From Candidatus Endomicrobium embiratermitis (GTDB lineage: Bacteria; Elusimicrobiota; Endomicrobiia; Endomicrobiales; Endomicrobiaceae): DNA of 64,000 bases. Each line of letters begins with the position of its first letter. Position 1 is the stretch's first letter. The DNA lies in contig WQYI01000001.1 in the NCBI GenBank assembly GCA_009781315.1, forward strand, positions 186,001-250,000. The letters run 5' to 3'. The position numbers and the translations under genes are program-made. Positions 21,480-60,466 of the stretch are shown here, piece after piece. A model generated the notes under the pieces. That model saw only the letters and a list, made by a program, of their open reading frames with translations. It was not told where the DNA came from and did not search any database.

Positions 21480-21512
21480 TCTGTTTGCCGTTGTCTCTAT
21501 TGTGAATTTAAG

Positions 21513-24999: not shown

Positions 25000-25004
25000 G
25001 TAAT

Positions 25005-26162: not shown

Positions 26163-26271
26163 CAGAGTAGAATGGATCCTCGCAACTGCCAAAGGCAGAG
26201 TTTTGAAAAAACTCTTAAAACACTCGAGGGCGACAAAAGAGTAGAATAACAAATTTCTTTTGTCGATTTCT

Positions 26272-26300
26272 TTGACAGCAAAAGATAAATTTGATACCAT
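26272..26300 (+). promoter_or_regulatory. Promoter of tRNA-Val
   Basis: TTGACA (26272-26277), 17-base spacer, TACCAT (26295-26300) preceded by TGA, giving an extended -10. The tRNA begins 18 bases after the -10 box. Confidence 0.65.
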
Positions 26301-26318
26301 TACAAAACTTCGTATTTC

Positions 26319-26394
26319 GGGCAGTTAGCTCAGCTGGAAGAGCAATTCCCTTACAAGGAATAGGCCGCAGGTTCAAGTCCTGCACTGCCCACCA
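26319..26394 (+). tRNA. tRNA-Val (anticodon TAC)
   Basis: 76 bases including an encoded CCA end. Acceptor arms GGGCAGT and ACTGCCC pair fully. The D arm is GCTC...GAGC. Anticodon stem ATTCC/GGAAT encloses loop CTTACAA with anticodon TAC, which reads GUA. The T arm is GCAGG-TTCAAGT-CCTGC. It stands alone between the RDD genes and the lipoprotein glycosidase gene. Confidence 0.97.
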
Positions 26395-26427
26395 CACGCA
26401 AAAATAATAAAACTACGGGAGTAAAAA

Positions 26428-28488: not shown

Positions 28489-28490
28489 TA

Positions 28491-29738
28491 ATGAATTTTT
28501 TAAATTTAAGGCTTAAAATTTTTGCAATAGCCGTTTTTATCAGCTGTGCCGTTTCGTTTTCATTTGCTGTGGCGGTTAAAGTCGTACAGACCGAAGAAGG
28601 TTCATGGAAATTAACGGTTAACGGCAGGGATTATTTTGTAAAGGGTATGGAATATTCCCCGGATACCGTCGGCCGCACGCCCGAATTGAACGACTGGATG
28701 TGGAGCGATATAAACAATAACGGCCGCATTGACGGGCCTTACGATTCCTGGATTGACACCGACAGAGATAATTACCGTTCTCCCGATGAAAATGACGTCG
28801 GAGATTTTGCTCTTTTGAAAGCCATGGGATGCAATACCATAAGAATTTATCATGCCGAAGACATCAATAAAGAACTATTAAGAGATTTGTATCATACCTA
28901 CGGCATAATGGTTATAATGGGCGATTATTTAGGCGCGTACACCAGAGGCAGCGAAGCGCATTGGAACGACGGAACGGATTATACAAACTCTTCGCAGCGC
29001 GCTAAAATGAAAGAAAGCGTCAGAAGAATGGTGCTTGAGCATAAAGACGAGCCTTATGTGCTTATGTGGATGCTTGGCAACGAAAATGATTCTCCGGGAC
29101 TTGAAATAAACTCCACCAAAACAAATACCAACGCCATAAAACATCCCGAAGTTTACGCGAAGTTTGTAAACGAAGTCGCCGCCATGATAAAAAGTATCGA
29201 TAAAAATCATCCTGTCGGAGTCTGTAACGCCACGGTAAAATTTCTGGAACATTACGCGAAGCATACTCCCGAAATAGATATTTTGGGATTTAACCAGTAC
29301 ACGGGCCCTTATGGTTTCGGCACATTGTGGAACAGGGTTAAAAGCGTATGCGGCAAACCTGTTCTTATAACCGAATTCGGGTGCGACTCATGGAACTCTA
29401 ATAAAAAAGCCGAAGACGAACGCTATCAGTCCAAGTATCATGCGGGAGCATGGAAAGACATAGAGAAAAACAGCTGTTGGGGCGAAGGCGCGGGCAACGC
29501 TCTCGGAGGCGTTGTTTACTGCTGGCTTGACAAATGGTGGCTTATAGGTTCTCCGAAAGTTCACGATACGGAGCTTGGAGCATGGAGAGGTCCGAAAAAT
29601 GACGGTTATTTTCACGACGAGTGGCTAGGCATATGTTCTCAGGGAAACGGAAAACAAAGTCCTTTTAAAAGGCAGCTTAAAGAAGTTTATTTTACGTATC
29701 AGGAAGAACTTTGGGCGACGGATATAACTAAAGAATGA
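28491..29738 (+). CDS. Clan GH-A glycosidase, short secreted paralogue 3
   Basis: 415 residues. It has a signal peptide (ending SFSFA) and only the catalytic barrel of the two larger paralogues. DYFVKGMEYSPDTVG opens the barrel; DINNNGRIDG and DTDRDNYRSPDE are the calcium-loop-like inserts (about 65-100); WMLGNENDS (about 194) and LITEFGCDSW (about 293) hold the two catalytic Glu. Loss of the N-terminal domain suggests different localisation or partner. A domain-level duplication is the simplest history. Substrate unknown. Confidence 0.78.
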   Translation: MNFLNLRLKIFAIAVFISCAVSFSFAVAVKVVQTEEGSWKLTVNGRDYFVKGMEYSPDTVGRTPELNDWMWSDINNNGRIDGPYDSWIDTDRDNYRSPDENDVGDFALLKAMGCNTIRIYHAEDINKELLRDLYHTYGIMVIMGDYLGAYTRGSEAHWNDGTDYTNSSQRAKMKESVRRMVLEHKDEPYVLMWMLGNENDSPGLEINSTKTNTNAIKHPEVYAKFVNEVAAMIKSIDKNHPVGVCNATVKFLEHYAKHTPEIDILGFNQYTGPYGFGTLWNRVKSVCGKPVLITEFGCDSWNSNKKAEDERYQSKYHAGAWKDIEKNSCWGEGAGNALGGVVYCWLDKWWLIGSPKVHDTELGAWRGPKNDGYFHDEWLGICSQGNGKQSPFKRQLKEVYFTYQEELWATDITKE

Positions 29739-29741
29739 TAA

Positions 29742-29770
29742 TTGACATAATTTTTTTTATAATGTAAAAT
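29742..29770 (+). promoter_or_regulatory. Promoter of the barrel-OmpA/lipoprotein operon
   Basis: TTGACA (29742-29747), 17-base spacer, TAAAAT (29765-29770). Perfect -35 box and optimal spacing. AGGAAAG lies before the ATG at 29812. Confidence 0.75.
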
Positions 29771-29811
29771 AATTTCGTTATTATTAGTTTTTAAAACAGG
29801 AAAGTTATTAA

Positions 29812-32628
29812 ATGAGATTTAAGCAAATTTTTTCGGCTTTAATATTTTTCTTATTAATTTCTTCAGCATGCGCCTTAACTGCGTATGCCGATTTTTTTTC
29901 GCCTTACGCGAAATATAACAGAATAGACCCGGAAACGCTTGAGACAGGCTCTATCGTTTTTAACGGCGAACTTACTTTTGATTACGTTTTCCATAAGCTG
30001 GGCGAAAACTGGGTAGTTTCCAGAGACATTAGCGGTATTAATAAAATCTTCAATTACATGCCGTCTCTTAACCCGGACAACAGATGGGAAGACACATACG
30101 GTCAGACTTTTCTTTTCAACGTAGGTTTCAGGCCTGTCGACTGGTTTTTCGCGGCGTTCGGTTTTGAAATGATTAACGATTACGCCGACAGATACTGGAT
30201 TCCGGTAAACGAGGAACACAGGCTTACTCTCAACGGCGACAGATTTCCGAGAATCGCGTGGCAAAACGCGAAAATCGGCATAAAATTAGACTGGATGTCG
30301 CTCACTTATTTCAAAAATTACGGACATGACGGCTGGATTTACGACGGGGATATGTTTGAAATGTTTCCCAAACAATACAATCCGGACGATTATTTACGTT
30401 ATTCAGGGCATCATACGCCCGATTACTGGCAGTTTAAAACCAAAGGAGTTTTCGGCGATCTGGACGTTATCTACGGCGAGGAAGCCATACAGGATTATAA
30501 GCAGGGCATATACCTAAAATATAAAAATATTTTCGGCAGCAACATCAATTTCTTTTATTCCGATCATATAATACCTTTCGGCAGGCCGGACGAAAGAATG
30601 CGTAATTTCCAGCTGAATACGGATTTTACTTTCTGGAAAGAGAGCAAATTTCAGATCGGCGGATTGTACAGGCCTTTCAGGCTTGACTGGGATTATCAAT
30701 ATGCCGAAGACGTCGGAGCAGGCAACGGACAGTACGGTACAAAATATATTATTAAAGACGGAACAACCGAAGAGAAAGACGCTTTAGGCGGTTCCGCGAA
30801 ATTTACGTTTCCTAAAAAATTAGGTTTGGATATGATAACGCTCGGCGGCGATTACAGAGGTTTGGTCGCCGGAAACAGATGGAAAGCGGAAGCTTCCGTG
30901 GAAAAACAGCTTTCTAAAACTATGAACGCTTATTTGGGCTATTTTTATCAAAAACCTCTTCTTAACGCTATGCCTTTGGTTTATGCGGGAGGCGGGATAG
31001 TGCCGCCTACTCTTTTTCAGGCCAGAGGGCCGGACAGCCCTTTTTGGGTTTGGTGGAGAGAACCCGCGTCCGGCTTTGACAACAGGGAAACAAGCAATTT
31101 TTCTTTTGTTTTTACCTACGACCCTACCCCTTCAACGTGGTTTTATAAGGATGATCCCAATGTTCCTATCGAATATAATTTGAATCCCGAGGAAGACGCG
31201 CCGTTTTCTTTTGCCGTTAAAGTAAATGTGGCTAAATATTACGGGACTTTAGACAGGCAGTTTTATTGGGAATATGACGGCTCTACCGTATGGGAAGACG
31301 CTTTTGCCAACGGAACGAACGTTCCGGACAGATATATAGGCTCGCTATACTTTTTAGGCCAGTTTGTTAAAGACGAGATAAAAGTTCTTTACGATTTTGA
31401 AGTCGGGGAAGATTTAGCTACTTTAAGTTATGCTTACCCCGATATGCCGGGCTTGCCCGGAAGAGAAGTATATATTAAGCCTATGATAGGTTATTTTAAA
31501 ACGAGTTTGAGCGTTAAAACAGACCCTTATTATTTTAAAGTAGGCTACCATAAAAATTATTGGGGTCCGGAAGACTGGCACAGAAAATTCGGTTCGTCCT
31601 ATGACGAGCTTTATCTTGCCCATGCCGACAGAAATATAGGCGAATGGTTTAACGTAGGCATAGAATATGTCGGAGCCAGAAAAACCGAACTTGCCGTTTT
31701 AAACCAGATGGCTGATATCCAAACCGAGAATGAAATGGGCTATTTTGATGAAATAAGAGTGTATTTTAAAGTATTCCTTGACGCGTTATTGAAATTCGGC
31801 AAAAAAGAAAGCGGACTTCCTTTTGAAGTCGAATATGACAAAACTCCTCCCGATGTGGCTCTTAAAACCAGACCCGATACTATTCATCCCGCCGAAGGAG
31901 AAGTTGCCACTCTCGAACCATGGGCTTATGCCCGCTCGGGAATATCTCACTGGGAAATATTTATCAGAGACCATGAAGGAAACGCGGTGCAAACTTATAA
32001 AGGCGAGAAAGAACCTCCGGAAGAACTTCGCTGGAACGGTAAAAATGAAAATAATAAAGCAATATGCCCTAACGGTCCTTATTACGCTACTCTTGAAGTC
32101 TGGGATAATTATAATAATCATGCCGTTTCTCCGACAAGAACCATCAACGTTATGACCAAAATAAAAGACGCCGAGGTTGTTGAAACCGAAAGAGGCTTGG
32201 TAATTACTCTGGGCGCTAAAGTGTTGTTTGATTTTGATAAATATAACCTTAAGACAGGCGCGAAGAAAACATTGACTGAAGTCGCTAACCTGTTAAAGAT
32301 GTATCCGAACAATAATATATCCGTTGAAGGCCATACGGATTGGAAAGGCAGTATAGCTTATAATCAGACATTGTCCGAAAACCGCGCGAAATCAGTAAGA
32401 GAATTTCTTGTAAAAGAAGGAATAGACGCCGATAGAATTAAGATTACGGGATTTGGCAAGTTAAGACCTGTTGCTTCAAACGAAACGGACAAGGGCAGAG
32501 ACCAGAACAGACGCGTTGAAATAATTGTTTTAAACGAACCTATGAAAGTTGACGAAATGCCTGATATTTCCGACAAGGCGATAAAAATCGACGCTAAGGA
32601 AACCGAGGTAAAAAATGAAAATAAATAA
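29812..32628 (+). CDS. Outer-membrane beta-barrel fused to FlgD-like Ig and OmpA domains
   Basis: 938 residues. Signal peptide (ending TAYA), then about 640 residues of alternating aromatic strands, as in a large outer-membrane barrel. An Ig-like segment with RWNGKNENNKAICPNGPYYATLEVWD (FlgD-Ig style, about 735-780) follows. The C-terminal OmpA domain has VLFDFDKYNLKTGAKKTL, ISVEGHTDWKGS, LSENRAKSVREFL and GRDQNRRVEI and should bind peptidoglycan. The barrel may be a glycan channel or a scaffold for the lipoproteins encoded downstream. It overlaps the next gene by 14 bases. The barrel-Ig-OmpA order in one chain is unusual. Confidence 0.8.
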   Translation: MRFKQIFSALIFFLLISSACALTAYADFFSPYAKYNRIDPETLETGSIVFNGELTFDYVFHKLGENWVVSRDISGINKIFNYMPSLNPDNRWEDTYGQTFLFNVGFRPVDWFFAAFGFEMINDYADRYWIPVNEEHRLTLNGDRFPRIAWQNAKIGIKLDWMSLTYFKNYGHDGWIYDGDMFEMFPKQYNPDDYLRYSGHHTPDYWQFKTKGVFGDLDVIYGEEAIQDYKQGIYLKYKNIFGSNINFFYSDHIIPFGRPDERMRNFQLNTDFTFWKESKFQIGGLYRPFRLDWDYQYAEDVGAGNGQYGTKYIIKDGTTEEKDALGGSAKFTFPKKLGLDMITLGGDYRGLVAGNRWKAEASVEKQLSKTMNAYLGYFYQKPLLNAMPLVYAGGGIVPPTLFQARGPDSPFWVWWREPASGFDNRETSNFSFVFTYDPTPSTWFYKDDPNVPIEYNLNPEEDAPFSFAVKVNVAKYYGTLDRQFYWEYDGSTVWEDAFANGTNVPDRYIGSLYFLGQFVKDEIKVLYDFEVGEDLATLSYAYPDMPGLPGREVYIKPMIGYFKTSLSVKTDPYYFKVGYHKNYWGPEDWHRKFGSSYDELYLAHADRNIGEWFNVGIEYVGARKTELAVLNQMADIQTENEMGYFDEIRVYFKVFLDALLKFGKKESGLPFEVEYDKTPPDVALKTRPDTIHPAEGEVATLEPWAYARSGISHWEIFIRDHEGNAVQTYKGEKEPPEELRWNGKNENNKAICPNGPYYATLEVWDNYNNHAVSPTRTINVMTKIKDAEVVETERGLVITLGAKVLFDFDKYNLKTGAKKTLTEVANLLKMYPNNNISVEGHTDWKGSIAYNQTLSENRAKSVREFLVKEGIDADRIKITGFGKLRPVASNETDKGRDQNRRVEIIVLNEPMKVDEMPDISDKAIKIDAKETEVKNENK

Positions 32629-33283
32629 AATTACAGCGGCGTCTTTTGCGTTAGTTTTACTGGCAGGTTTTATTTCATCATGCGCTTCTTCAAATTCAGC
32701 CGGCAATTCCGCCGCTATTTCTCGGACGAAAAATACAAGCGCGCTTACCGCGCAGGAAAGGGCTGCTTTGGCGTTTTACGTTTATGCTGATTATAAATCT
32801 CCGTTAAATCATTTTTATCCTTCGGGCTGGATGGGCGATACCAGGGATTTGTTTTTTGACCAAAACAGTAAAGAATACCCGTATGCCGGAAAGACATGTA
32901 TAAAAGTGCAATATATCCCTAGCGGGAAAAACGGCTGGGCGGGCGTTTTTTGGCAGCAGCCTGCCAATAACTGGGGAGATAAAGACGGCGGATATGATTT
33001 GAGCAAAGCTACCCATGTTACGTTTTGGATGAGAGGCGAGAGCGGCGGGGAAGTTATTTCCGAAGTAAAAATAGGCGGATTAAAAGGACAGTTTCCCGAT
33101 TCGGATTTTGCCGTTAAAAAAAATATAACGCTTACAAAAGGCTGGAAATTGTATTACATAGATTTAAAAGGAAAAAAACTTTCGCGCATTGCCGGCGGTT
33201 TCTGTTTTGTTGTCAACAAGGATGATAATCCCAGAGGCTGCACATTTTATATAGATGAAGTAAGATACGAGATGAATAAATGA
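32615..33283 (+). CDS. Lipoprotein with carbohydrate-binding-like sandwich
   Basis: 222 residues. Lipobox ISSC after a hydrophobic signal, then a short Ser/Ala linker and one beta-sandwich domain (about 55-222) with GWAGVFWQQPANNWGDK, FWMRGESGGE, KIGGLKG and YIDEVRYE. The pattern fits galactose-binding-like modules (CBM11/CIA30 style) ending in an IDD/IDE strand. The domain is closely similar to the C-terminal part of 34444-35319. Predicted to sit on the outer membrane and bind a glycan; ligand unknown. Confidence 0.72.
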   Translation: MKINKITAASFALVLLAGFISSCASSNSAGNSAAISRTKNTSALTAQERAALAFYVYADYKSPLNHFYPSGWMGDTRDLFFDQNSKEYPYAGKTCIKVQYIPSGKNGWAGVFWQQPANNWGDKDGGYDLSKATHVTFWMRGESGGEVISEVKIGGLKGQFPDSDFAVKKNITLTKGWKLYYIDLKGKKLSRIAGGFCFVVNKDDNPRGCTFYIDEVRYEMNK

Positions 33284-33930
33284 AAAAACTATTAATACTT
33301 TTTATTCCTATGCTTGTTATTTTGTCGGGATGCGAAAAGAATCCCATAGGGGCGCTTTTATACAACGGCGTTAACAATTCAACCGGCTGGCCGGCTGTTT
33401 GGACTCTTTACAGAAACGGCGACCTTATGGTAAGCAAAAATTCGTATGATATTCGCGCATATACGGATTATTGGGGTACGCGCCCGAATCAGCTTAATTT
33501 GAAAAGTCTGGGAGCCTCGCACAGCGGTACAATGTCTATATATGTTGCCTGGGACGGCAGCCCCAGTTTTGATTTTAGCGCAGGCATCCAGCAAACCGGT
33601 TATGTCGGTTTTTGGATATATACCGAAAATAAGACTTTTGGCATCGATATGACAGGCGGCGGATATCAATATTTAAAATTTTGGGCTAAAGGAAAATTGA
33701 ATTCCGGCGTTGTATTAAGAGTGGAAACGGAAGGAGCGTCAAGTACTGATCCAAACGGAGCACCGGGAGTATGGGAAGGTCCAGTCTCCGACGTTTGGAC
33801 GGAATACACCGTTCAACTCAAGCAAATTACAGGCGTTAAGGATGCTTTTAGAATTATTTTAAGAAATACAACGTCTCTGCAAAGTAACGGCGGATATGCA
33901 TATATAGACGATATAAGGTTCACGCAATGA
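33280..33930 (+). CDS. Lipoprotein with galactose-binding-like domain
   Basis: 216 residues. Lipobox LSGC (Cys about residue 18). The mature protein is one beta-rich domain with YLKFWAKGKLNSGVVLRVETEG and a final YAYIDDIRFTQ, the strand order of carbohydrate-binding sandwiches. It is more distant from its neighbours than they are from each other. Start overlaps the previous stop by four bases (ATGA). Ligand unknown. Confidence 0.68.
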   Translation: MKKLLILFIPMLVILSGCEKNPIGALLYNGVNNSTGWPAVWTLYRNGDLMVSKNSYDIRAYTDYWGTRPNQLNLKSLGASHSGTMSIYVAWDGSPSFDFSAGIQQTGYVGFWIYTENKTFGIDMTGGGYQYLKFWAKGKLNSGVVLRVETEGASSTDPNGAPGVWEGPVSDVWTEYTVQLKQITGVKDAFRIILRNTTSLQSNGGYAYIDDIRFTQ

Positions 33931-34409
33931 AAAAAATAATAGCTTTTATTTTCGCTTTTTGTTTGTTTGCAAACTCTTGCGCGTATGCGGGGACTTTGGA
34001 ATTAGATTTTTCAGAAGAAACCCCGTTTAACGCTTCTTTGCGTTCGGCTTTGCTTCCCGGCTGGGGGCAAATGTGGAACGATCAGGAAACAAAAGGCTGG
34101 ATAGTTTTGGGTATTTTTGCCGTTTCCGTTGCCGGAGCTTTTTATTTTAATAATCAGGCGCAGGAATACTATGATAAGTATGAGAATCAAGGCATAATAA
34201 ACGGAAGTTATTACGATGATTACGAAAGAAATTATCAGGCTTCCCAGATTTTTACGTTTGCGGCTATAGGCACGTGGCTTTACGCGGTTATAGACGCTTA
34301 TGTTGTCTGTAAAAAACAAACGTCGTCGTATTCCAGAACATCTTCATTCAATTTTTATTACAATCAGAAAGACGATTCTTTGAGTTTTAATTACAGCAGG
34401 AGAATTTAA
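33927..34409 (+). CDS. DUF5683-like membrane protein
   Basis: 160 residues with a signal peptide (ending CAYA), then FNASLRSALLPGWGQMWNDQETKGWIVLG, the hallmark of the DUF5683-type family, and two membrane helices (about 50-70 and 105-125). Family function is unknown; members often sit next to outer-membrane or surface-protein genes, as here. Overlaps the previous gene by four bases. Confidence 0.7.
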   Translation: MKKIIAFIFAFCLFANSCAYAGTLELDFSEETPFNASLRSALLPGWGQMWNDQETKGWIVLGIFAVSVAGAFYFNNQAQEYYDKYENQGIINGSYYDDYERNYQASQIFTFAAIGTWLYAVIDAYVVCKKQTSSYSRTSSFNFYYNQKDDSLSFNYSRRI

Positions 34410-34443
34410 CGCTGGCGCTGATTGCAAGAAAATGGAGTGAGAA

Positions 34444-35319
34444 ATGGACAATAAAAAAACTACCGTAGTCCTTTCTGTATTGCTTTTTTTTATAATAATG
34501 CTTTTGTTTCTCAGATCTTGCGATGTTTTGCCTGAACTTCATGTTAACGCCGGCCAAACGGCTGTAAAAAACGATTCGCCGGCAAATTATAAATCAGTAA
34601 ATTCGGATGACGGCATTATAATATCTTCCGAACCGGTTATTAACACTAATATTTCTGTTGCTGCCGTTTCGGAATCTACGGCTCCGGCGGTTCAAAAAAA
34701 AGTTGCTCTGAACAGTACGGAATTGCTTGAATCTGTTGTTCAAAAACAGAAAAAGAAGATTGAAAAAAGTACGGCATATTTTAATAAATCAGGGTTTAAA
34801 CCTTTTTATGTTTACAGTGAAGCAGGACAGAAAGGCAATCATTATTATCCTTACGGCTATATGGGAAATATCCGTTCTTTAACAGTAAATCAAGCATGCA
34901 AAGAAACTTTTAAAAACGGAAAAACAAGTATTAAGATAACTTATAATCCGCATGTGGAAGATACAGAAGGTTTGGACTGGGCCGGTTTATATTGGACGGA
35001 ACCTGCTAATAATTGGGGCGATAAAGGCCCCGGATTTAATCTTACCGGAGCCGAAAGGATTTCTTTTTGGGTTAAGGGAGAAAAAGGCGGGGAAATAATC
35101 AACAATTTTAAGATAGGCGGCATTCAGGGCAAAGAAAGCGAAGATTCGGATTCAAGATCAATAGGACCGATTGAACTTACAAAAGACTGGGAGCAGTATG
35201 TAATTATTGTTGAAGAAGCCGACTTGAAAAACATAATCGGCGGTTTTTGTTTTACTATAACGAAACAAAGCAATCCCGACGGCGCGGTGTTTTATCTGGA
35301 CGATATAGTTTACGAATAG
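34444..35319 (+). CDS. Membrane-anchored protein with carbohydrate-binding-like sandwich
   Basis: 291 residues. The N-terminal hydrophobic segment (about 8-25) ends LFLRSC, a poor lipobox because Arg sits at -2, so a plain membrane anchor is also possible. A Ser/Ala/Val-rich linker (about 30-115) leads to a sandwich domain (about 118-291) with DWAGLYWTEPANNWGDK, FWVKGEKGGE, FKIGGIQG and YLDDIVYE, almost the same as in 32615-33283. Same operon. Ligand unknown. Confidence 0.7.
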   Translation: MDNKKTTVVLSVLLFFIIMLLFLRSCDVLPELHVNAGQTAVKNDSPANYKSVNSDDGIIISSEPVINTNISVAAVSESTAPAVQKKVALNSTELLESVVQKQKKKIEKSTAYFNKSGFKPFYVYSEAGQKGNHYYPYGYMGNIRSLTVNQACKETFKNGKTSIKITYNPHVEDTEGLDWAGLYWTEPANNWGDKGPGFNLTGAERISFWVKGEKGGEIINNFKIGGIQGKESEDSDSRSIGPIELTKDWEQYVIIVEEADLKNIIGGFCFTITKQSNPDGAVFYLDDIVYE

Positions 35320-35320
35320 A

Positions 35321-35412
35321 AGCTGAGAAGTTGGGCAGCTAGGAAGCTGAGCAAGAGACTTTTTTTATCGTTACTCAACCTCCCCGCTTCTCACCCTCTC
35401 AACTTCTTATTA
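35321..35412. repeat. Inverted repeat, GAAGCTGAGAAG family
   Basis: Arms AGAAGCTGAGAAGTTGGG and CTTCTCACCCTCTCAACTTCT in inverted orientation around a short T-rich centre. A relative with arms AGAGGATGAGAAGG...CATCTCAACTTCT lies at 61161-61264. Confidence 0.75.
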
Positions 35413-35427
35413 TCACGGGAGTTTATT

Positions 35428-36657
35428 ATGAAAAAATTTTTATTTTTATCGCCTTTACTGTTAATATGCGCCTTTATTATAATTTCCTGCGCTCCTGAAA
35501 GAAAGTCCAGATTAAACAGTGACAGCATTGTAGTAAGAATAGAACCTCCCATAGCGAACGTTCCTTTAGACACTACAAAAACTTTGACCGCTATAGTTAG
35601 AAACGCCAAAGGTGATATAGTGGATTTACCCGTTACATGGAGCATAGACCCGTCAACAGGCATCGGCGCGTTTGATTCCGTGACAGGTAAAACAGCGGAA
35701 TTCAGGGCTATTGGAAACGGCATCGTTACTATAACCGCGCTTAGCAACGGCGTAACGGGCAGTATAAACGTAGGATGCGGAAGCTATCATGCTCCCGACA
35801 GCATTGTTATTACTTCTGCGCCTGACGGCGTGAGCAACGGTAAATCCGTGCCTATAACCGTTCAGTTATCCTACGGCGGTCCGGTTGCGTCCGGGGGTAT
35901 AGCGGTTTCTGTAGACACCAGTACGATACTTTGGGATGTTTCAGGTCCCGGATCTCTTTCGGCATCAAGCGGTCAGACTGTAACATTTACCGCGAACCCT
36001 GCTCCGGCGCTTGGACAAGCAACCGTAAAAATCTCTTTCGGGAATTTATCGGTTACTAAGCTTATATCTGTAGCCGAAGTCGTTCCTACTGCGGATGCCG
36101 TAATGATTTACAGCGATAACGGTTTTGGACCCAACTTAATAACTGAACCTTACGGGTATTTTCATTGGGGAGACTGGAACTGGTATCCTCCGGGAACTTA
36201 TCCTGAAAATCCCGATGCTCCCGTAGTGTATCCGACAACGTCAAAAGTTGATACTACTGCTGCTCCCAGCGGCGTGCCTAGTATTGACCCTTTGAGTTCG
36301 TTGAAATTTGAATATTATAAAGGCAGCGGCTTAACCTCACCCGTATGGCCTTCCGGCAATTTTTACGGCGGATTTTCTTTCAGATATAATTCCGCGCAGA
36401 ATTTAACTACCATGACTAAACTGTATTTTTATGTTAGAGGCGCTTCAGGCGGTGAAGATCTTATAGTACAAAATGTCGGTAATGCTTCTACAAATTTACA
36501 CATAAACACAATAAAACCTATAACTACGAATTGGCAGCTCTATAGTATTACTCTTTCTGCTGCGCGTACTTCCGTAACGGTTCCTGTTTCTTTCTTTTTT
36601 GAAGCAGCGCCTGACAGTACCGTTTATATAGACTACATATATTTCGACGTTGAATAA
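35428..36657 (+). CDS. Lipoprotein with Ig-like domains and carbohydrate-binding-like tail
   Basis: 409 residues. Signal with lipobox IISC, then a Big-type Ig domain (VRIEPPIANVPLDTTKTLTAIVRNAKG..., about 30-115), a second Ig-like region (about 118-215) and a C-terminal sandwich (about 220-409) with FEYYKGSG, LYFYVRGASGGEDLIV and TVYIDYIYFDVE, distantly related to the modules upstream. The shape suits an outward-reaching surface binder. A strong terminator follows, ending the operon that starts at 29812. Confidence 0.72.
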   Translation: MKKFLFLSPLLLICAFIIISCAPERKSRLNSDSIVVRIEPPIANVPLDTTKTLTAIVRNAKGDIVDLPVTWSIDPSTGIGAFDSVTGKTAEFRAIGNGIVTITALSNGVTGSINVGCGSYHAPDSIVITSAPDGVSNGKSVPITVQLSYGGPVASGGIAVSVDTSTILWDVSGPGSLSASSGQTVTFTANPAPALGQATVKISFGNLSVTKLISVAEVVPTADAVMIYSDNGFGPNLITEPYGYFHWGDWNWYPPGTYPENPDAPVVYPTTSKVDTTAAPSGVPSIDPLSSLKFEYYKGSGLTSPVWPSGNFYGGFSFRYNSAQNLTTMTKLYFYVRGASGGEDLIVQNVGNASTNLHINTIKPITTNWQLYSITLSAARTSVTVPVSFFFEAAPDSTVYIDYIYFDVE

Positions 36658-37008: not shown

Positions 37009-38523
37009 ATGAAAAACAAATCAAAAATAAGTATATATAGTTTATTCCTTTTTTCCTTTTCTTCATTGGTTTACGCGGGCGACATCGTAAATAAAAAATA
37101 CCGCGAAGAATTTCTTTCCGATCAGGCAATAAAAAATTACTATAAAACGCAAGTCAATGTTTCAAATTACTTTTCAAGGCAGACTTCAGCCGTTAACGGA
37201 CTGGTCGAAAGTTTCCGAGGAAGTTCCGTATACAGCTACGACGTATTTACCAGAGGTTTTATATACGGGAAAAACGGCGTTCTTGACGCGCAGTCTTTTA
37301 CATACGACGGAGCCATCGCGGCTATCGCCTATTTGACGTGCGACCAACCGCAAAAAGCAGCGGATATTTTAAACGTTTATAAAAAAGAATTTTATTGTAT
37401 TAAAAACGACGAAAATTACGGAATTTTTAACAGTTACCAGACGGATAAACCCGCCACCCAGTGGGGGCTTGCAATAGGGATTGACGGCGACAGAATGCAC
37501 GTAGGACCCACAATATGGGTTGGGATTGCCGCTATCCAATATACCGCTATTACGGGCAAACTTGATTTTCTTCCGTTTATAATAGACATATGCAAATGGA
37601 CGGAATCCCTTCCGCATTATACTCTTGAAAACGACCAAAGAGGCGCGGTCTCAATGGGGTCCGGCTGGGGGCCGGACTGGTCTAAAATTTATTCCACGGA
37701 AAACATTGTGGATCATTACGCTCTTTTAAAAATGTTAAAAGAAATATACGACCTCAACAATGATAAAATAAAAGAAATATTCAGGCAAAAAGGCTATTCC
37801 GATGTTGACATAAATAAGGAAATGTTCAGTATAGAGAGATGGCTCATGGAAGCGGTGTACGACAAAGACAAAAAAACTTTTAACGTGGGCACTAATGAAA
37901 ACGGCGTGGATAAAACCGACGCTTTGGACGCGATTTCATGGACCATACCCGCAATAGGACCGCAGCGCCTTTTGGAACTTGGCGTTGACCCTTATCATTT
38001 AATGAAGTTTGCCGATGAAAATTATCTTGTTGAAGATACTATAAACAATACTATTATCCGCGGATATGATTTTACGAATTATGAAGGCAGAAAGAAAGAT
38101 TACAAAATGGTCTGGTTTGAAGGAACGGGCTTTCACATTGTAGCTATGCAGGTTATGGCAAAATTTGCCCAGGAGAACGGTCAAGACAACAGAGCCGAAT
38201 ACTTTCAACAGAAAGCAAAATATTTTTTAAACGAAATGGATAAAGCTTCCGCTGCCTGCGGTATGATTGACGGAGCCTTGCCTTATACTTCCAAAAACCC
38301 CGGAGAAAAAGAAATTTTTACAACTTTTTACTATGAGTGGGAAATTCCTCGCGGCAGGAAAGGGCAATTGGTTTCTTCTGCTTCTTCAACCGGCTGGTAT
38401 ATAATAGCGTCCTCGGCTTTTGACCCCCTGAGTTTTGACAAGAAAAATGTCAACTACAAGCTTTTCAATAAATATCCGCAGAAACCTGCCATTAACGGCA
38501 ACGGCAAAAACGGCAAAAAATAA
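37009..38523 (+). CDS. Secreted six-hairpin (alpha/alpha barrel) glycosidase-like protein
   Basis: 504 residues with a signal peptide (ending VYAG). The mature part is mostly helical with repeated hairpins: DAQSFTYDGAIAAIAYL, HVGPTIWVGIAAIQY, NIVDHYALLKMLKEIYD and GTGFHIVAMQVMAKFAQENG, the pattern of (alpha/alpha)6 glycosidases. Acidic residues next to aromatics (SFTYD, WFEGTGF) are candidate catalytic positions. I cannot assign a GH family. It is transcribed alone from its own promoter, between the lipoprotein operon and the fibre-like cluster. Confidence 0.68.
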   Translation: MKNKSKISIYSLFLFSFSSLVYAGDIVNKKYREEFLSDQAIKNYYKTQVNVSNYFSRQTSAVNGLVESFRGSSVYSYDVFTRGFIYGKNGVLDAQSFTYDGAIAAIAYLTCDQPQKAADILNVYKKEFYCIKNDENYGIFNSYQTDKPATQWGLAIGIDGDRMHVGPTIWVGIAAIQYTAITGKLDFLPFIIDICKWTESLPHYTLENDQRGAVSMGSGWGPDWSKIYSTENIVDHYALLKMLKEIYDLNNDKIKEIFRQKGYSDVDINKEMFSIERWLMEAVYDKDKKTFNVGTNENGVDKTDALDAISWTIPAIGPQRLLELGVDPYHLMKFADENYLVEDTINNTIIRGYDFTNYEGRKKDYKMVWFEGTGFHIVAMQVMAKFAQENGQDNRAEYFQQKAKYFLNEMDKASAACGMIDGALPYTSKNPGEKEIFTTFYYEWEIPRGRKGQLVSSASSTGWYIIASSAFDPLSFDKKNVNYKLFNKYPQKPAINGNGKNGKK

Positions 38524-38937: not shown

Positions 38938-39831
38938 ATGAAAAAGTTGTTAGGACTTTTGGTTGTGTCTGTTTTCATTTTTGTAGCAGCGGTAAATGTT
39001 TATGCTGTTACTATCAGTACGGCAGGTTTTACTGCAGAAGTTATTTTTGCAGATAAGACTGGTGATTCTGTGTTTGGTGTAGTATTGAAAAAGATTACCT
39101 CTGGTAATACTATTACTGCTACCAGCACTTCTACTGCCGGTAACTTAAACTGGACTGATACGGATGGTACGACTCTTCTTACCGGTGTTGTCCCCAAGGG
39201 TTCTACGTCCACTTGGGTAACTTCTAGAGTTTATGCGGAAATGATAGGAGATGTTAAATTAAACGGAAGAGTTATGGTTTACACGGACAATACTGATAGC
39301 ATCGCCTATAAATTCAGTGGTAATGATGCTAATAAAGCACAAATGGGTACGTTGGTAATATCCACCAAAACCACCGGAAACTCCGGAGCAGCGAGTTTCC
39401 AGGATACGTTGCCTCTAGTTTATAAAGTAGTAAGTCTTAATAATGCTTCAACGAGCTCTTATGTTTCTTATGGTATGGACCCGACTATTACTAATAACTT
39501 TGGAGTTTTTGCCATGCAGGATAAAGCAAAACTATTCTTTGATGGTAAGAATGATCAGGGCGTCGTCGTAACAGACACAACAATGGAGTATAATGAAGTT
39601 TATTCGACTATAATGACAGGCAAAGATGGATATAGAGCCGGTTTTATTGGAGACACAGAACCCGGATTTAATATTGCTAATGGTGATCCTAAGGATCCTT
39701 TGGCTTATCACTGGGGCAAAGAAGCGCCTGAAACTAAAATGATTATGTTTTTCGCTTCAATGTTTAACAATGCTAACCGTGGTTTTTCATACGGAACTGA
39801 TACTCTGACTTTTGAGCTTATAGAAGAATAG
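38938..39831 (+). CDS. Secreted beta-rich protein, possible major surface subunit
   Basis: 297 residues. Signal peptide ends NVYA. The mature protein is Thr/Ser/Gly-rich, beta-strand-like, low in Cys and rather acidic, as in abundant fibre or S-layer subunits. The last strand YGTDTLTFELIEE resembles the end of 40751-41995 (YRTNTITLECLNE). I chose the ATG at 38938 for its strong AAGGAG; an upstream in-frame ATG at 38776 lies in repeat sequence. A perfect hairpin without U-tract follows the stop, then a PapD-like chaperone gene. Codon and residue choice differ visibly from housekeeping neighbours, suggesting high expression. Not matched to a known family. Confidence 0.65.
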   Translation: MKKLLGLLVVSVFIFVAAVNVYAVTISTAGFTAEVIFADKTGDSVFGVVLKKITSGNTITATSTSTAGNLNWTDTDGTTLLTGVVPKGSTSTWVTSRVYAEMIGDVKLNGRVMVYTDNTDSIAYKFSGNDANKAQMGTLVISTKTTGNSGAASFQDTLPLVYKVVSLNNASTSSYVSYGMDPTITNNFGVFAMQDKAKLFFDGKNDQGVVVTDTTMEYNEVYSTIMTGKDGYRAGFIGDTEPGFNIANGDPKDPLAYHWGKEAPETKMIMFFASMFNNANRGFSYGTDTLTFELIEE

Positions 39832-39839
39832 TTTTTTTT

Positions 39840-39876
39840 AAGAAGCGGCTTAAAGTTTAGCTTTAAGCCGCTTCTT
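39840..39876 (+). other. Perfect 16-bp hairpin without U-tract
   Basis: AAGAAGCGGCTTAAAG pairs fully with CTTTAAGCCGCTTCTT around the loop TTTAG. ACGACAAAAA follows, so it is not a typical intrinsic terminator on the plus strand. It lies nine bases after the stop of 38938-39831 and could protect that mRNA end or reduce readthrough. Confidence 0.75.
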
Positions 39877-39903
39877 ACGACAAAAAACTCATTAGGAACA
39901 AAT

Positions 39904-39979
39904 TTGTCATGCTGAACTTGTTTCAGCATCTCGTTGTTAAAAGATAACGGCAGATCCTTCACTGCGTTCAGGGTGACAG
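39904..39979. repeat. Intergenic palindromic repeat
   Basis: Begins TTGTCATGCTGAACTTG and ends CGTTCAGGGTGACAGT, with an inner CTGAACTTGTTTCAG hairpin. Same type as the TGTCAT/ATGACA elements elsewhere. Confidence 0.75.
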
Positions 39980-39997
39980 TATTTAACGGGATGATTT

Positions 39998-40744
39998 ATG
40001 AAACGAATATTTGTGCTTTTAGCGTTATTGTTTTTTGCATCTTACTCTTACGCGAGTTTGGTTATATCTCCAGAGAGGTTGGAACTTCTTGTTGAAAGAA
40101 ACGCGGTTTTTAAAGGGGAGTATTCGTTAACTAATAGATATGATGGCAGCGTTGATGTTGAGATATCGTTTCGAAACTGGAACATATATTCCGGCAACGG
40201 TGATTTAGACGTTAAGGATTGGCTTAAAATTCCGTTTAGCAAAATCCGTCTTGCGAAAGGCGAAACAAAAAAAGTTCCTTACGAGGTACATACCGATAAT
40301 TCTATGAAAGGGTCTGTTTCCGCTATGGTTTCTTTTAGCGTAAAACCGCCGCAAAGCGAAGGCATAAATGTTAAAATGACGCTTCCTTTGTATCTTGTTA
40401 TAGAAGGAACTCATAAAGTAGAGTTTTCTACGGAAAAAATTATAATAAGCCGGTACAATAACCAAACATCCGTTGACATTGTGGTTAAAAACGACGGAAA
40501 CGTGCATATAAGGCCGAACGGTACTTTAAATATATACAGCGGAAAGAAATTAGTTTATACGGTTGAAATTCCCGAAGGGCTTCCGGTTTATGCTGGTACT
40601 TCTAGAAGCGTAATGAAGGCTTCTATACCTAACGATCTTAAAAAAGGCAAATATACTGCCGAAGTAATTGTGAGGGCGTTAGGTATGGAAGCAAGCAAAA
40701 AAACAGAGTTCAGAATAAGAAAAGACGGCTCGCTTATATCTTAA
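39998..40744 (+). CDS. PapD-like periplasmic chaperone
   Basis: 248 residues with a signal peptide (ending SYA). Two Ig-like halves. The first starts LVISPERLELLVERNAVFKGEYSLTN and contains WLKIPFSKIRLAKGETKKVPYEV, the motif order of PapD-like chaperones (subunit-binding strands, then a WI/L-x-x-P...L-x-x-G-E motif). VSAMVSFSVKPP ends it. The second half has STEKIIISRYNNQTSVDIVVKNDGN. Such chaperones hold surface subunits in the periplasm by donor-strand exchange. No usher gene is visible. An alternative is a DUF916-like ligand-binding protein. Confidence 0.68.
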   Translation: MKRIFVLLALLFFASYSYASLVISPERLELLVERNAVFKGEYSLTNRYDGSVDVEISFRNWNIYSGNGDLDVKDWLKIPFSKIRLAKGETKKVPYEVHTDNSMKGSVSAMVSFSVKPPQSEGINVKMTLPLYLVIEGTHKVEFSTEKIIISRYNNQTSVDIVVKNDGNVHIRPNGTLNIYSGKKLVYTVEIPEGLPVYAGTSRSVMKASIPNDLKKGKYTAEVIVRALGMEASKKTEFRIRKDGSLIS

Positions 40745-40750
40745 AATATT

Positions 40751-41995
40751 ATGACAACTAAAATATTAAAATTATCATTACCTTTATTTATCTGTTTTGT
40801 GTGCGTTGGCTTTTTGCATGCACAGAGTTATCCCGTAATAAATAAAAATGTTTACGCCATTTATTGCGATAATATCAGCGGAGCTACTCTTGATGATAAT
40901 GATTCTGGACCTAACAGAATACGTTGGATGCCTTGGACAGACTGGAATGGTTATTTGGCAATCTCTGAAATTGAAAATGAACCTTTTGAAGGGAAGTATT
41001 GTTTTCGCTTTACAAGACCTCCAGAGAACGCTTGGGGCGGAGGGGGATTTAATTTTACTGGTCCTTCTGGCGCTTATAGAAATATGTCGTCGTACTATGA
41101 CGGAGCAATTGAATTTTGGGTAAGAACCACGGATAAAAACAATGCAGTAACAGCTAATTATGAAGTTGGTGTACAGTTTACTCCCGGTGTGGAAGAATTC
41201 TTCACTCTTGTTAGTTTGAATTTTATATCTACAGAACCAGGTTGGCAAAAGATGTATATACCGCTTACTTCACCGAGGTTTGATACCGTAAAACTATCAT
41301 CGGTTTCTGCTTCTTTTGTGATTAAGCATGATCCTTTTTCTTGTCCGATAGATATTGATGCAATCGTTTGGAAAAAACCGAATTTAGCTTCAGGCCAGAA
41401 TTTTTCGGCAAATATAAAAAACAGGAGCGGTGGCGCTTCGGTTTCTTCAATAACGTGGTCTAATCCTGCGGTTGGCTCAGGCTGGCAAACCTCTGACCAG
41501 TATATTGAACTTTATCTTGACAGCGATGATTTTGTAAACAATAATTGGAGCGTTCGACTATATGTAAATAACGGAACAGGGGCTGGCGGCGACGGCTATA
41601 CCGGATCTCTTACTACATCTACAGTAGCCGGGCTTGTATCTTCATCTTCCGATACAATACTTCCAATGAGGTTTAGAGTTATAGATAAGGACCTTGATGC
41701 ACCCGGCGAAGTTCTTTTTGTTAACGAAAATTGGATGTATCCTTATTGGGCGCAAATGAGAGATGAAAATCATTTTGATTCGGCTGACGAGTTAACTGTT
41801 TGGGATTCAAGGCAAGGATTTCATTGGAATTTTTATAGAGATGGTTTAGATGACGATGGATACCCAATATCTTATTACGGCGATTTGAAAAACGATAAAG
41901 TTTTAAGAATATATTTTCTTGCAGATTTCACAGACGCTCGTTACGGGCGTGAATATAGAACGAATACAATAACGCTAGAGTGTTTAAATGAATAA
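40751..41995 (+). CDS. Secreted protein with glycan-binding-like N-terminus, possible tip or minor subunit
   Basis: 414 residues. Signal peptide ends FLHA. The N-terminal half (about 25-210) is a beta-sandwich with RFTRPPENAWGGGGFNFTG, IEFWVRTTD and a final IDIDAIVWKK, like the lipoprotein modules at 32.6-36.6 kb. The C-terminal half (about 215-414) is a second beta domain ending TITLECLNE, which resembles the end of 38938-39831 and may be the polymerisation or chaperone-recognised part. Two-domain adhesins at fibre tips have this layout. It overlaps the next gene by eight bases. Confidence 0.6.
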   Translation: MTTKILKLSLPLFICFVCVGFLHAQSYPVINKNVYAIYCDNISGATLDDNDSGPNRIRWMPWTDWNGYLAISEIENEPFEGKYCFRFTRPPENAWGGGGFNFTGPSGAYRNMSSYYDGAIEFWVRTTDKNNAVTANYEVGVQFTPGVEEFFTLVSLNFISTEPGWQKMYIPLTSPRFDTVKLSSVSASFVIKHDPFSCPIDIDAIVWKKPNLASGQNFSANIKNRSGGASVSSITWSNPAVGSGWQTSDQYIELYLDSDDFVNNNWSVRLYVNNGTGAGGDGYTGSLTTSTVAGLVSSSSDTILPMRFRVIDKDLDAPGEVLFVNENWMYPYWAQMRDENHFDSADELTVWDSRQGFHWNFYRDGLDDDGYPISYYGDLKNDKVLRIYFLADFTDARYGREYRTNTITLECLNE

Positions 41996-43430
41996 GAAAA
42001 TTTTATTTACCAGCTTAATATTATTCTTTGCTTTTTGCGGTTTTTCTAGTGCCGCTGAAGTTGGATTGAATTCACCCGCGGTGTTTCGCGCGGAAATTCA
42101 TTTTTCAAACGAAATTCCTCCTTTAAATGTTCTTCATGACCAACAGACTTATGTTTTGCAGTTTTCATCGTTTACGGCGGACGGCAGGGTAGTTGCGGAT
42201 TCAAGAATAACGATAGATTCCGTAGAACTTCAGTACAGTTCCGATACAGTAAATTTTGTAACATACTCTACGTCTTTTTATAACGCTTTAGACAAAACTT
42301 TCAGCTTTTTTGTCGATAATATAGACATGTCGCCCAGTTTGGGTTTTTACAGGTTTGCCGTAGAGTATTCCACGCCCGGCGCGAACGGGCTTATTTATTC
42401 TTCCAATTGGTTTGACGTAAAAAATCCTAAAATATCGCATGTGCATATTGAAAGAGTATCGCCTATTCAGAAAGCGATAGTTTTAAAAGGCGATGTTTCG
42501 GACAGCTTTGTAAGCAAGGTTGACATAGAATACAAAATCGACGAAAATCTTAATGTATCTTCCGCAGGCCTGGCCGGTTTGAAGTTTACAAGCGATATAA
42601 AATATGTTGAAGATAACCCTGATTTTGTCGAGTATAGAATCAGAGCGTATGTTGACGGCAGCGCTGATAAAGTAAAATATTATCCGTACGATATGTCTTA
42701 TATCAATGCTCCTGTTTCGTCTTTTACCGCGAAAAATATCACTCCAGATGGCGATACGATTATTTTAGACAATGAAGACCAAAGATACGGAAATTCTAGA
42801 ATTACGTTTTACGCGGGCGCTCTAACTTCGGATGTGCTTGTTTCTATTACCGAATTAGATCATAAAGATCCCGCTAATTTTCCTTCGCACATACAAAATG
42901 CCGTAAAATTGTATGTAATCGAACCGGAAGGGCTTGAATTGAATTCTCTAAGCCCTGAGCAGCTTGTAAAAAAGATTTCTCCTAAAAGCATAAACGGCTT
43001 GGCGAATTTGATTTTATATCAGGGGAATGAGAAAAACGGAAGATTTCAGATAAAACATCATAACGGCTCGGAGTGGATAGATATGGAAACAACGCAGGAT
43101 TTAGCTTCGAAAACTGTTTCCACGTCCATAAGCAGGCTGGGGTATTACGCGATAGCCCAACTCTCTTCCAATCCGGATAACGACTACAGGCCGCTTGAAA
43201 GGGCTTTTAGACCGGGAGAAACCATAGAATTTAGAAGTTTGCAGGCAGGAGATAGTGTTACCATATATAACCTGAGAGGACAGCAAATAACAAGGCTTAC
43301 GGCTTCATCTTCCGGTAATCTTGCATGGGATGGAAAAAAGAACGGTTCTTACGTAGAGTCCGGTTCTTATATATATCAGATAAAAACCAACGGAAAAGTA
43401 ATAAGCGGTTCATTGGCGTTCTTTAGATAA
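41988..43430 (+). CDS. Secreted protein with FlgD/type-IX-like C-terminal domain
   Basis: 480 residues. Signal peptide ends SSA. Beta-rich throughout, with ZU5/autotransporter-adhesin-like segments in the middle. The C-terminal 70 residues (FRPGETIEFRSLQAGDSVTIYNLRG..., WDGKKNGSYVESGSYIYQIKTNGKVISGSLAFFR) match the pattern of FlgD-Ig and type IX sorting tails: V-x-I-Y-N-L-x-G, then W-D-G-x, then G-x-Y-x-Y, then a final basic strand. A PorV/UPF0164-like barrel follows directly. It may be exported or anchored through that barrel. Confidence 0.65.
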   Translation: MNKKILFTSLILFFAFCGFSSAAEVGLNSPAVFRAEIHFSNEIPPLNVLHDQQTYVLQFSSFTADGRVVADSRITIDSVELQYSSDTVNFVTYSTSFYNALDKTFSFFVDNIDMSPSLGFYRFAVEYSTPGANGLIYSSNWFDVKNPKISHVHIERVSPIQKAIVLKGDVSDSFVSKVDIEYKIDENLNVSSAGLAGLKFTSDIKYVEDNPDFVEYRIRAYVDGSADKVKYYPYDMSYINAPVSSFTAKNITPDGDTIILDNEDQRYGNSRITFYAGALTSDVLVSITELDHKDPANFPSHIQNAVKLYVIEPEGLELNSLSPEQLVKKISPKSINGLANLILYQGNEKNGRFQIKHHNGSEWIDMETTQDLASKTVSTSISRLGYYAIAQLSSNPDNDYRPLERAFRPGETIEFRSLQAGDSVTIYNLRGQQITRLTASSSGNLAWDGKKNGSYVESGSYIYQIKTNGKVISGSLAFFR

Positions 43431-43441
43431 AAGGCAAAAAT

Positions 43442-44353
43442 ATGAGAAAAAGTGCGTTACTATCATTATCAATAATCTTTCTTTTCGCCGCTAAAGCGTT
43501 TGCTTTATTTGACGCGTCTTTCTGGGGCGTACGCGCTATGGGAATGGGCGGAGCGTTTACCGCTGTATCCGACGATGTAAATGCGCCGGGATACAATATA
43601 GCGGGTATAGCCGGAATGGAAAGTCCGGAAGTTACGGCGATGTCTGCGAAACTGTTTTCAGGACTTGACGGTTTGGATATGAGCGCCCAATATATTGAGG
43701 GCGTTTACCCTATAAGTAAAAAAGCAGGTTCAGTGGCATTAGGCTGGTCTCATTTCGGAGACGCAGGATTGAGAAGCGAAGATATGGTAAATTTAGGCTA
43801 TGCAAATAATGTTTATAAAAACGACTGGATAAAATTGCTTTTGGGCGCCAACTTAAAGTATTTAAGGCAAGCCGTAATGTATATGGGAGACGACTTGTCT
43901 AACAGCGCGTTTGGCATAGATTTAGGCGTTCTTGCCAGATTTAAACATGGGATTTCCGTTGGATACAGCGGTAAATATTTAAATTCGCCGGATATAGGAC
44001 TTAAGGACACTGATAATGTCCCGCGGACAAATACGGTAGGTTTGGCTTATTATAACGAAAAGCTTCCTTATTTAGACATTCCTCATTTTACGGTAGCCAT
44101 GGACTATGAAATAAGAGACAGCGAAAATACATTGATGCTTGGAATGGAAAGCCGTCTTATAAATGACACGCTAGCGGTAAGAGCCGGCGGCTGGAGCGAA
44201 CAGCTAAATTTTGGTTTAGGTTATAAATTAAAGTTTGGCAAAGACGAAAAAAACAACTCTGCTTTAAGCATAGATTATGCTCTCGGACTTCCCTTAAAAG
44301 TGCAGGATACTATCGGTTCACACTTCTTCAGTTTAAGCTACAGATTTAATTAA
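43442..44353 (+). CDS. PorV/UPF0164-like outer-membrane barrel
   Basis: 303 residues. Signal peptide (ending KAFA), then FDASFWGVRAMGMGGAFTAVSDDVNAPGYNIAGIAGMESPEV, the N-terminal pattern of PorV/PorQ and UPF0164 barrels (GxRAxGMGGAFxAxADDxxAxxxNPAG). The rest is repeating amphipathic strands ending in aromatic FFSLSYRFN, a C-terminal barrel signal. In type IX systems PorV shuttles cargo carrying a C-terminal sorting domain; the adjacent gene has such a tail. This is the last gene of the cluster. Confidence 0.75.
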   Translation: MRKSALLSLSIIFLFAAKAFALFDASFWGVRAMGMGGAFTAVSDDVNAPGYNIAGIAGMESPEVTAMSAKLFSGLDGLDMSAQYIEGVYPISKKAGSVALGWSHFGDAGLRSEDMVNLGYANNVYKNDWIKLLLGANLKYLRQAVMYMGDDLSNSAFGIDLGVLARFKHGISVGYSGKYLNSPDIGLKDTDNVPRTNTVGLAYYNEKLPYLDIPHFTVAMDYEIRDSENTLMLGMESRLINDTLAVRAGGWSEQLNFGLGYKLKFGKDEKNNSALSIDYALGLPLKVQDTIGSHFFSLSYRFN

Positions 44354-46904: not shown

Positions 46905-47828
46905 ATGACATACGACGTTATTATTGTAGGCGGCGGACCTGCAGGCTTGTCTGCCGCTATTTATACGGCCAGAGCAAGGCTTAAAACCCTTATAATAGAG
47001 AAAGCAGGCTGCGGCGGCCAGATGGCTGTTACGGATATGCTTGAAAACTATCCGGGCTTTAACGGCGGAATAAACGGTTTTGAGCTTGCCACGAAGCTTG
47101 AGTCCCAGGTAAGAGATTTCGGTGCTGAAATCGTCTATGACGAAGTAGAAAGCATATCTGATACCGGAGAGCTAAAAACCGTGATTACGCCGAATACTAC
47201 TTACAAATCTAAAACGGTTATTATAGCCGCAGGCGCAAAAGTCAAAGAAATGAACATAGAAGGCGAGGCGCGGTTTATAGGCAAGGGCATATCTTTTTGC
47301 GCGGTTTGCGACGCGCCTTTTTACAGAGATAAAACCGTGGCGGTAGTCGGCGGCGGTGATTCGGCGGTGCAGGAAGCGATACATCTTGCGAAATTCGGTA
47401 AAAACGTCATTATAATTCACCGCAGGAATGAGCTTAGAGCCGCGAAAATTTTACAGTAAAAGATGCTTTCGTATAAGAATATATCGGTAATATACAATAC
47501 CGTTCCCGAACGCGTTACAGGCGGCGATAAAATAGAAAAGTTTATAGTTTCCGACGTAAATACAAAAAAGATAACCGAACTTGAAGTTGACGGTATCTTT
47601 GTTTTTATAGGCCTTATTCCAAATACCGCTTTTATTTCAAAAGAAGCCGCTAATCTGGCTTTAGACGAATCGGGTTACATAATAACCGATGAAAACATGA
47701 AAACCTCCGTTTCCGGCATTTTTGCATGCGGGGATATAAGGAAAAAACAGTTAAGGCAGGTTGTTACAGCTGCTTCAGACGGCGCGCAAGCCGCGATAAG
47801 CGCCCAAAATTACATAGAACAGCATTAA
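46905..47828 (+). pseudogene. trxB: Thioredoxin reductase interrupted by an in-frame TAA
   Basis: FAD/NADPH enzyme that reduces thioredoxin. The first part (46905-47459) has the FAD site [16 protein letters not shown], the redox-active CAVCD (about residues 131-135) and the NADPH site [11 protein letters not shown], and stops at TAA (47457-47459) after [12 protein letters not shown]. The same frame continues at once with KMLSYKNISVIYNTVPERVTG and ends with the FAD motif GIFACGDIRKKQLRQVVTAASDG. A single GAA or AAA to TAA change would explain it. There is no frameshift and no other damage. It is recent decay, a sequencing error or readthrough. UAA is an ordinary stop elsewhere in the window. 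Confidence 0.88.
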
Positions 47829-59746: not shown

Positions 59747-59801
59747 AATACCCTCCTATCTATGGTTAAATAACGCAGGGAGTATTTTTTTTATTGCAGA
59801 T

Positions 59802-60455: not shown

Positions 60456-60466
60456 AATCTTCTTAT

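Follow-up and report, generated by a model that had tools for sequence, protein, structure and literature searches.

A window of 64,000 nucleotides (the whole stretch of DNA analysed here; contig WQYI01000001.1, positions 186,001 to 250,000 of the forward strand) from the 1.9 Mb genome of Candidatus Endomicrobium embiratermitis, an Endomicrobium of the phylum Elusimicrobiota, contains at 38938-44353 five adjoining genes, labelled SUB, CHP, TIP, T9C and BRL. Together they probably encode a glucan-binding surface fibre or a short multi-subunit adhesive complex, whose parts would be linked by donor strands without the help of an usher. The proposed structure is a chain of the form TIP-(SUB)n-T9C that would be assembled by CHP and anchored by BRL. 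The five open reading frames (ORFs) are:

38938..39831, + strand: SUB, putative major subunit, 297 amino acids, with signal peptide, N-terminal extension and a beta domain ending in YGTDTLTFELIEE
39998..40744, + strand: CHP, periplasmic two-Ig chaperone with a WxLIP/PapD-like fold, 248 amino acids
40751..41995, + strand: TIP, putative tip adhesin, 414 amino acids
41988..43430, + strand: T9C, putative base/anchor protein, 480 amino acids
43442..44353, + strand: BRL, PorV/PorP-like outer-membrane barrel, putative shuttle/anchor of T9C, 303 amino acids

All five ORFs were found where a sequence-only reading of the same DNA had placed five secreted, co-directional proteins, and each protein has a signal-peptide-like start, as read from its sequence. 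The strong ribosome binding site claimed for the first gene is present as well (AGGAG, 7 nucleotides 5' of the SUB ATG). Intergenic gaps are short, apart from the 166 nucleotides separating SUB and CHP. Of 60 close relatives, 25 encode a CHP relative, and a profile search detected such proteins in 55 of 341 Elusimicrobiota genomes; the closest named genome found was that of Ca. Endomicrobium labiotermitis, whose BRL is 75% identical. In the loci around the CHP relatives, ORFs were called and then scored with family models. The gene set was found in tens of loci from at least seven Elusimicrobiota families, and the SUB family adjoins CHP in 40 of 50 CHP loci. For 18 CHP loci, 5 kb or more of sequence was available on both sides. 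Of these, 16 have T9C, 16 have BRL and 13 have SUB, or 14 with the SUB of the window itself, which had received a wrong label owing to an ORF call extended to an upstream TTG; strict scoring assigned all five labels in eight of these loci. The order SUB-CHP-TIP-T9C-BRL is shared by several genera of the family, by loci L062 and L064 from elsewhere in the order and by L068 from another family of the class. In L066, likewise from outside the family but within the order, TIP precedes CHP; the order is BRL-SUB-CHP-T9C-TIP in families f15 and f19, and family f17 has SUB-CHP-TIP-T9C at a contig end (L077) and CHP-T9C-BRL in two other loci (L084, L085). The recurrence of the gene set exceeds chance. 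Conservation of the five-gene order in relatives, which the sequence-only reading had proposed as a check, thus holds for the set and mostly for the order, with rearrangements in some families. CHP was absent from all listed genomes of genus g8, which are small; members of this genus may be intracellular symbionts. Five loci from one set of genomes (L049, L051, L042, L044 and L047), three of them at contig ends, have CHP without a recognised SUB, TIP, T9C or BRL nearby.

The candidate donor strand is a short segment that SUB and T9C have in common:

39007..39063, + strand: putative donor strand with the core FTAEVIF, in the extension (residues 24-42) at the N-terminus of mature SUB
42057..42110, + strand: start of mature T9C, with an extension of the SUB type (core FRAEIHF)

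T9C is mostly unrelated to SUB, and the matching segment sits directly after its signal peptide. Across sequences the SUB extension has the consensus xSxST(F/Y)TAEVTF, in which positions 1, 3, 5 and 7 are hydrophobic in 80, 93, 98 and 91% of the sequences and positions 0, 2, 4 and 6 in 25, 7, 20 and 16%. Residues 20-37 are unpacked in the AlphaFold2 model of SUB, with a predicted local distance difference test (pLDDT) score below 50. SUB and T9C N-termini match locus by locus, as in L064 (SFSGSISSTTITASAT and SYSGSISSSTITCSVT), L068 (QQFQSIRISTITAQANVT and QNFQSISISTVVAEAYVS) and L034 (TTIFRAEISF and TMLFRAEVSF). The N-termini of 25 loci aligned locally with a mean score of 31.6 in same-locus pairs versus 17.4 in other-locus pairs, and none of 10,000 permutations was as high, whereas the same test on the signal peptides gave 18.2 versus 18.5. 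Duplication of the gene 5'-end as cause of the match was ruled out, since the signal peptides are unmatched. In up to 30 loci, the N-termini of TIP, CHP and BRL gave no locus-specific signal and the following 36 residues of SUB and T9C a slight locus-specific effect only. This paired test was used instead of a model of the extension alone, which had its best match within the first 30 residues in 20 of 37 T9C, 1 of 34 TIP, 2 of 40 CHP and 16 of 22 BRL proteins and is too short to decide. Since SUB and T9C match in one short strand and hardly elsewhere, this strand most likely goes into the same partner in both proteins, for which the groove of the SUB domain would be the simplest candidate. The common N-terminus is a better-supported candidate donor strand than a strand of CHP, which the sequence-only reading had proposed to test as the donor. 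The position directly after the signal peptide and the match locus by locus would also suit an export or sorting signal for one machine, such as BRL or a SprA-like channel, with no donor strand involved. We consider this improbable, because TIP is without the segment yet must reach the same place, and because the strict in-out alternation of hydrophobic residues fits a beta strand that fills a groove.

The gene for SUB is followed by a second conserved feature:

39839..39877, + strand: strong RNA stem-loop just 3' of the SUB stop codon, 18 pairs, -30.6 kcal/mol, z -8.2

Equivalent stem-loops of unrelated sequence were found 3' of SUB in 21 of 29 loci, compared to 24 of 150 control ends of other genes in tandem; T-runs 3' of the stem-loop are just slightly richer than at control gene ends. 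By ending or stabilising transcripts, the stem-loop would probably raise SUB over the later genes, as expected for a major subunit. The SUB sequence found no match in the PDB after removal of the signal peptide; with the signal peptide kept, secreted Fab chains only were found, which are signal-peptide matches. A lipobox cysteine is absent from SUB. Assignment of SUB to the DUF4402 pilins (PF14352) was ruled out (hhalign E 0.54), and PF14352 was unmatched in the own genome. Two DUF4402 pilin-like proteins do occur together with a CHP-like chaperone and a CarboxypepD/OmpA protein of 1013 amino acids in a distant Elusimicrobiota genome (L086:5541-10948), where they possibly form another fibre that is usherless or has an unusual usher.

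TIP had been read from the sequence as a two-domain protein with a glycan-binding-like front and a tail resembling the first protein, and both domains were recovered by profile searches:

40817..41383, + strand: CBM30-like glucan-binding domain of TIP, residues 23-211 (family profile versus PDB 2c24/1wmx, E 2.5e-5)
41396..41992, + strand: SUB-like domain at the C-terminus of TIP (residues 216-414), lacking the N-terminal extension (i-Evalue 4e-28, starting at model position 28)

The number of CBM30-like copies per TIP ranges from one in the window to seven in tandem (L038), and one TIP has a GH72-like domain (L066). No recognised SUB domain of a TIP begins before model position 20; TIP therefore has no counterpart of the first 20-odd residues of mature SUB. 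The subunits of chaperone-usher fibres carry an N-terminal donor strand, and their two-domain tip has none. Given that adjoining genes encode glucan enzymes and CBM-like lipoproteins, the five proteins might also be unlinked surface glucan-binding proteins that have a folding chaperone and a regulon in common and form no joint structure; this is very improbable, given the locus-specific match of SUB and T9C and the fact that the set is also conserved outside the glucan cluster. The cluster itself lies just upstream (18267-36657) and comprises three GH2_C/GH72-like enzymes, a protein of 1070 amino acids without Pfam match, an OmpA-domain protein and several CBM-like lipoproteins; its function is probably glucan handling.

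CHP had been described as a PapD-like two-Ig chaperone by the sequence-only reading, which named unrelated folds as a ground for giving it up. The two-Ig part stood, since the AlphaFold2 model of CHP (made with 36 relatives) has a pLDDT of 93.9 and two beta-sandwich domains in a chaperone-like arrangement, but the closest relative is another one. The best Foldseek matches in the PDB were WxLIP structures of Enterococcus faecium (9i1y/9i25, E 4e-12 to 2e-11), followed by the fimbrial chaperones CfaA, YadV, Caf1M and CsuC (E 8e-10 to 2e-8); fold matches to chaperone-usher chaperones as a whole span E 8e-10 to 2e-7. Likewise, the sequence profile of CHP had its best PDB match, over the full length, in EfmWxLIP1 (E 1.2e-3). 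The TM-scores are about 0.5 and, therefore, the relation is one at the level of the fold. Pfam WxLIP domains matched weakly and only 4-5 of 36 CHP members, and PapD_N (PF00345) matched neither CHP nor any other protein of the own genome. An usher had been reported missing, with a canonical one elsewhere named as a refuting result; PF00577 had no match in the own genome or in the 60 relatives, with a positive control in E. coli. CHP is, in structure and sequence, nearer to WxLIP than to PapD and, therefore, the closest described layout is that of a WxL cluster. In such clusters, WxLIP is encoded together with two WxL proteins, one small and one large, the latter with its WxL domain at the C-terminus; WxLIP is predicted to contribute the strand that completes the WxL sandwich (PMC10599100). 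SUB, TIP and CHP mirror this layout. CHP might hence be a permanent partner, with SUB and TIP as the small and large members; together with T9C and BRL they might make up a complex that is fixed on the outer membrane as a glucan-binding patch, with no fibre formed. This is unlikely, albeit the strongest of the alternatives: CHP ends in beta strands and is without the C-terminal transmembrane helix of WxLIP, Pfam matches of 37 SUB members and seven TIPs include no WxL family, and a chain better explains both the stem-loop of a major subunit and the donor-strand-like N-terminus common to SUB and T9C.

The last two proteins point to a possible type-IX-like route. The sequence-only reading had seen a FlgD/type-IX-like C-terminus in the fourth protein and a PorV/UPF0164-like barrel in the fifth, and profile scores agree, in the case of the barrel below the curated cut-offs:

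43239..43406, + strand: type-IX-like C-terminal domain of T9C, residues 418-473 (TIGR04183, 23.8 bits, cut-off 23)

T9C also matched CHU_C (4e-4), with weak scores in type-B models. BRL resembles PorV_fam (NF033709, E 8e-11), with 42 bits under the curated cut-off of 90, and TIGR03519 (3e-4), with 20.2 bits under the cut-off of 90.6; other genes in the genome pass the curated PorV/PorP cut-offs. Seven type-IX-like C-terminal domains (CTDs) of the genome score above the cut-off, and other CTD genes adjoin PorV-family genes (C24, C11, C3, C8). A SprA-like protein was present in 17 of 18 tested genomes with CHP; in G003 it is just a fragment at a contig end. From these sequences, a type-IX-like route in the genome is plausible. 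In Flavobacterium, a gene for type-B cargo often has a dedicated PorP/SprF-like shuttle gene directly after it, and such barrels are reported to carry and anchor the cargo (PMC12618676, PMC9143113). Reviews place the type IX secretion system in Bacteroidota alone (e.g. PMC7463736). Directly 5' of the SprA/Sov-like gene of the own genome, an autotransporter of 1762 amino acids with Chlamydia-type PMP repeats is encoded (contig 14; L088:4568-15373).

Taken together, the earlier reading of the locus as a chaperone-type surface structure with a type-IX-like barrel is supported, none of the refuting results named there having been seen. It is extended by features absent from it: the common N-terminal extension, the stem-loop, the likeness to WxLIP and the SprA-like gene elsewhere in the genome. 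We propose the following model. Judging by their signal peptides, all five proteins would reach the periplasm or the outer membrane. There, CHP, by its fold and gene neighbourhood, would bind and cap SUB-type domains in the periplasm and may donate a strand to them. SUB would be the major subunit, with an acceptor groove and the donor-strand-like extension seen as a sequence pattern, so that strand exchange could lead to polymerisation. TIP would stand at the distal end only, because it has a SUB-type domain without an extension. T9C would close the chain at the cell side as its last link, because it has a SUB-like extension but a type-IX-like C-terminal domain in place of the SUB domain. BRL would then shuttle T9C outwards and retain it on the cell surface, the putative channel being the SprA/Sov-like protein, and the stem-loop would favour SUB over the downstream genes. 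More tentatively, and with slightly less than even confidence, we suggest that this is a new class of fibre, in which a WxLIP/PapD-like chaperone serves usherless, donor-strand-linked subunits and T9C, a type-IX-type cargo protein bearing the donor strand of a subunit, forms the first or last link of the chain and has its own PorV/PorP-like barrel for export and retention; such a fibre would lie at the junction of pilus assembly and a type-IX-like route.

Several results weigh against the fibre model. The AlphaFold2 model of SUB is mediocre (pLDDT 77.7) and its fold search gave no significant match, the best being CanA with E 0.02; the pilins CfaB, FimI and FimA rank further down. A CTD is absent from SUB and TIP, which leaves their crossing of the outer membrane unexplained. 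The SprA/Sov-like protein (1783 amino acids, contig 14) scores 118.6 bits (E 1.5e-34), compared to a curated cut-off of 200, and the listed matches for the PorU peptidase (NF033707) cover the C-terminal part of the model only, none of them above the cut-off. For the PorL/PorM (GldL/GldM) motor, the GldM model had no match anywhere, controls included, and thus was without a positive control. Finally, unrecognised secreted proteins occupy the SUB and TIP positions in L084 and L085, and one genus has lone CHP genes (L049, L051).

The system does not qualify as chaperone-usher, WxL or canonical type IX secretion system; most likely, it works like a donor-strand fibre. It resembles the WxL clusters of Firmicutes in its trio of a small protein with a single domain, a large protein that carries this domain at the C-terminus behind adhesive domains, and a partner with two Ig domains, but it differs in the missing Pfam WxL domain and CHP membrane helix and in the additional T9C and BRL, that is, a type-IX-like signal and an outer-membrane-type barrel. 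With archaic (Csu) and class 5 (CFA/I) chaperone-usher pili it has in common a two-Ig periplasmic chaperone and, as a sequence pattern only, the donor-strand-like extension on SUB and its lack in the two-domain TIP; unlike there, CHP falls outside Pfam PapD_N, and a CTD protein and a PorV/PorP-like barrel stand in place of the usher. The type-B CTD adhesins of Flavobacterium also have the gene of a CTD protein followed by that of its own barrel, but here BRL is below the curated PorV/PorP cut-offs, PorU was not detected as a peptidase, and the cargo T9C bears a SUB-type donor-strand-like N-terminus. CanA is, as said, the best, non-significant fold match of SUB, which is the likeness to CanA cannulae and TasA-like donor-strand fibres; for these we know of no described chaperone, tip or CTD anchor. 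The type V (FimA/Mfa1) pili of Porphyromonas are donor-strand fibres formed without an usher, and their pilins are lipoprotein precursors activated by a protease. The usherless fibre proposed here would be analogous, but a chaperone is encoded beside SUB, which lacks a lipobox cysteine. Donor-strand complementation of type V pili is named in the title of PMC4789730. Literature searches returned no relevant paper that connects a donor strand to WxL or chaperone-usher to Elusimicrobi*, and no description of such pilus assembly or of a type-IX-like route in Elusimicrobiota was found.

Beyond the five genes, one further gene is loosely associated with the locus:

37009..38523, + strand: secreted protein of unknown family, 504 amino acids, with homologues 5' of SUB in several loci

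Elsewhere in the window, a thioredoxin reductase gene (46905-47828) is broken by an in-frame TAA at 47457-47459, whereas a relative (L031) has a single ORF of 307 amino acids; the interruption is either a pseudogene or an assembly error. At 58259-61148, three adjoining minus-strand genes encode proteins with a similar C-terminal domain of unknown family, two of them without Pfam match.

If the model is true, donor-strand fibres would be built across the outer membrane in a new way, without an usher and tied to a type-IX-like anchor, and one chaperone fold would link the Gram-positive WxL layout with Gram-negative pili. As cell appendages of Endomicrobiaceae, pilins alone have been reported to be encoded (PMC11257099), and an Elusimicrobia lineage was reported to be enriched ~500-fold on cellulose, even though it largely lacked cellulases (PMC7031533). 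With the system described here, the Endomicrobiaceae would gain a means of adhesion to glucan.

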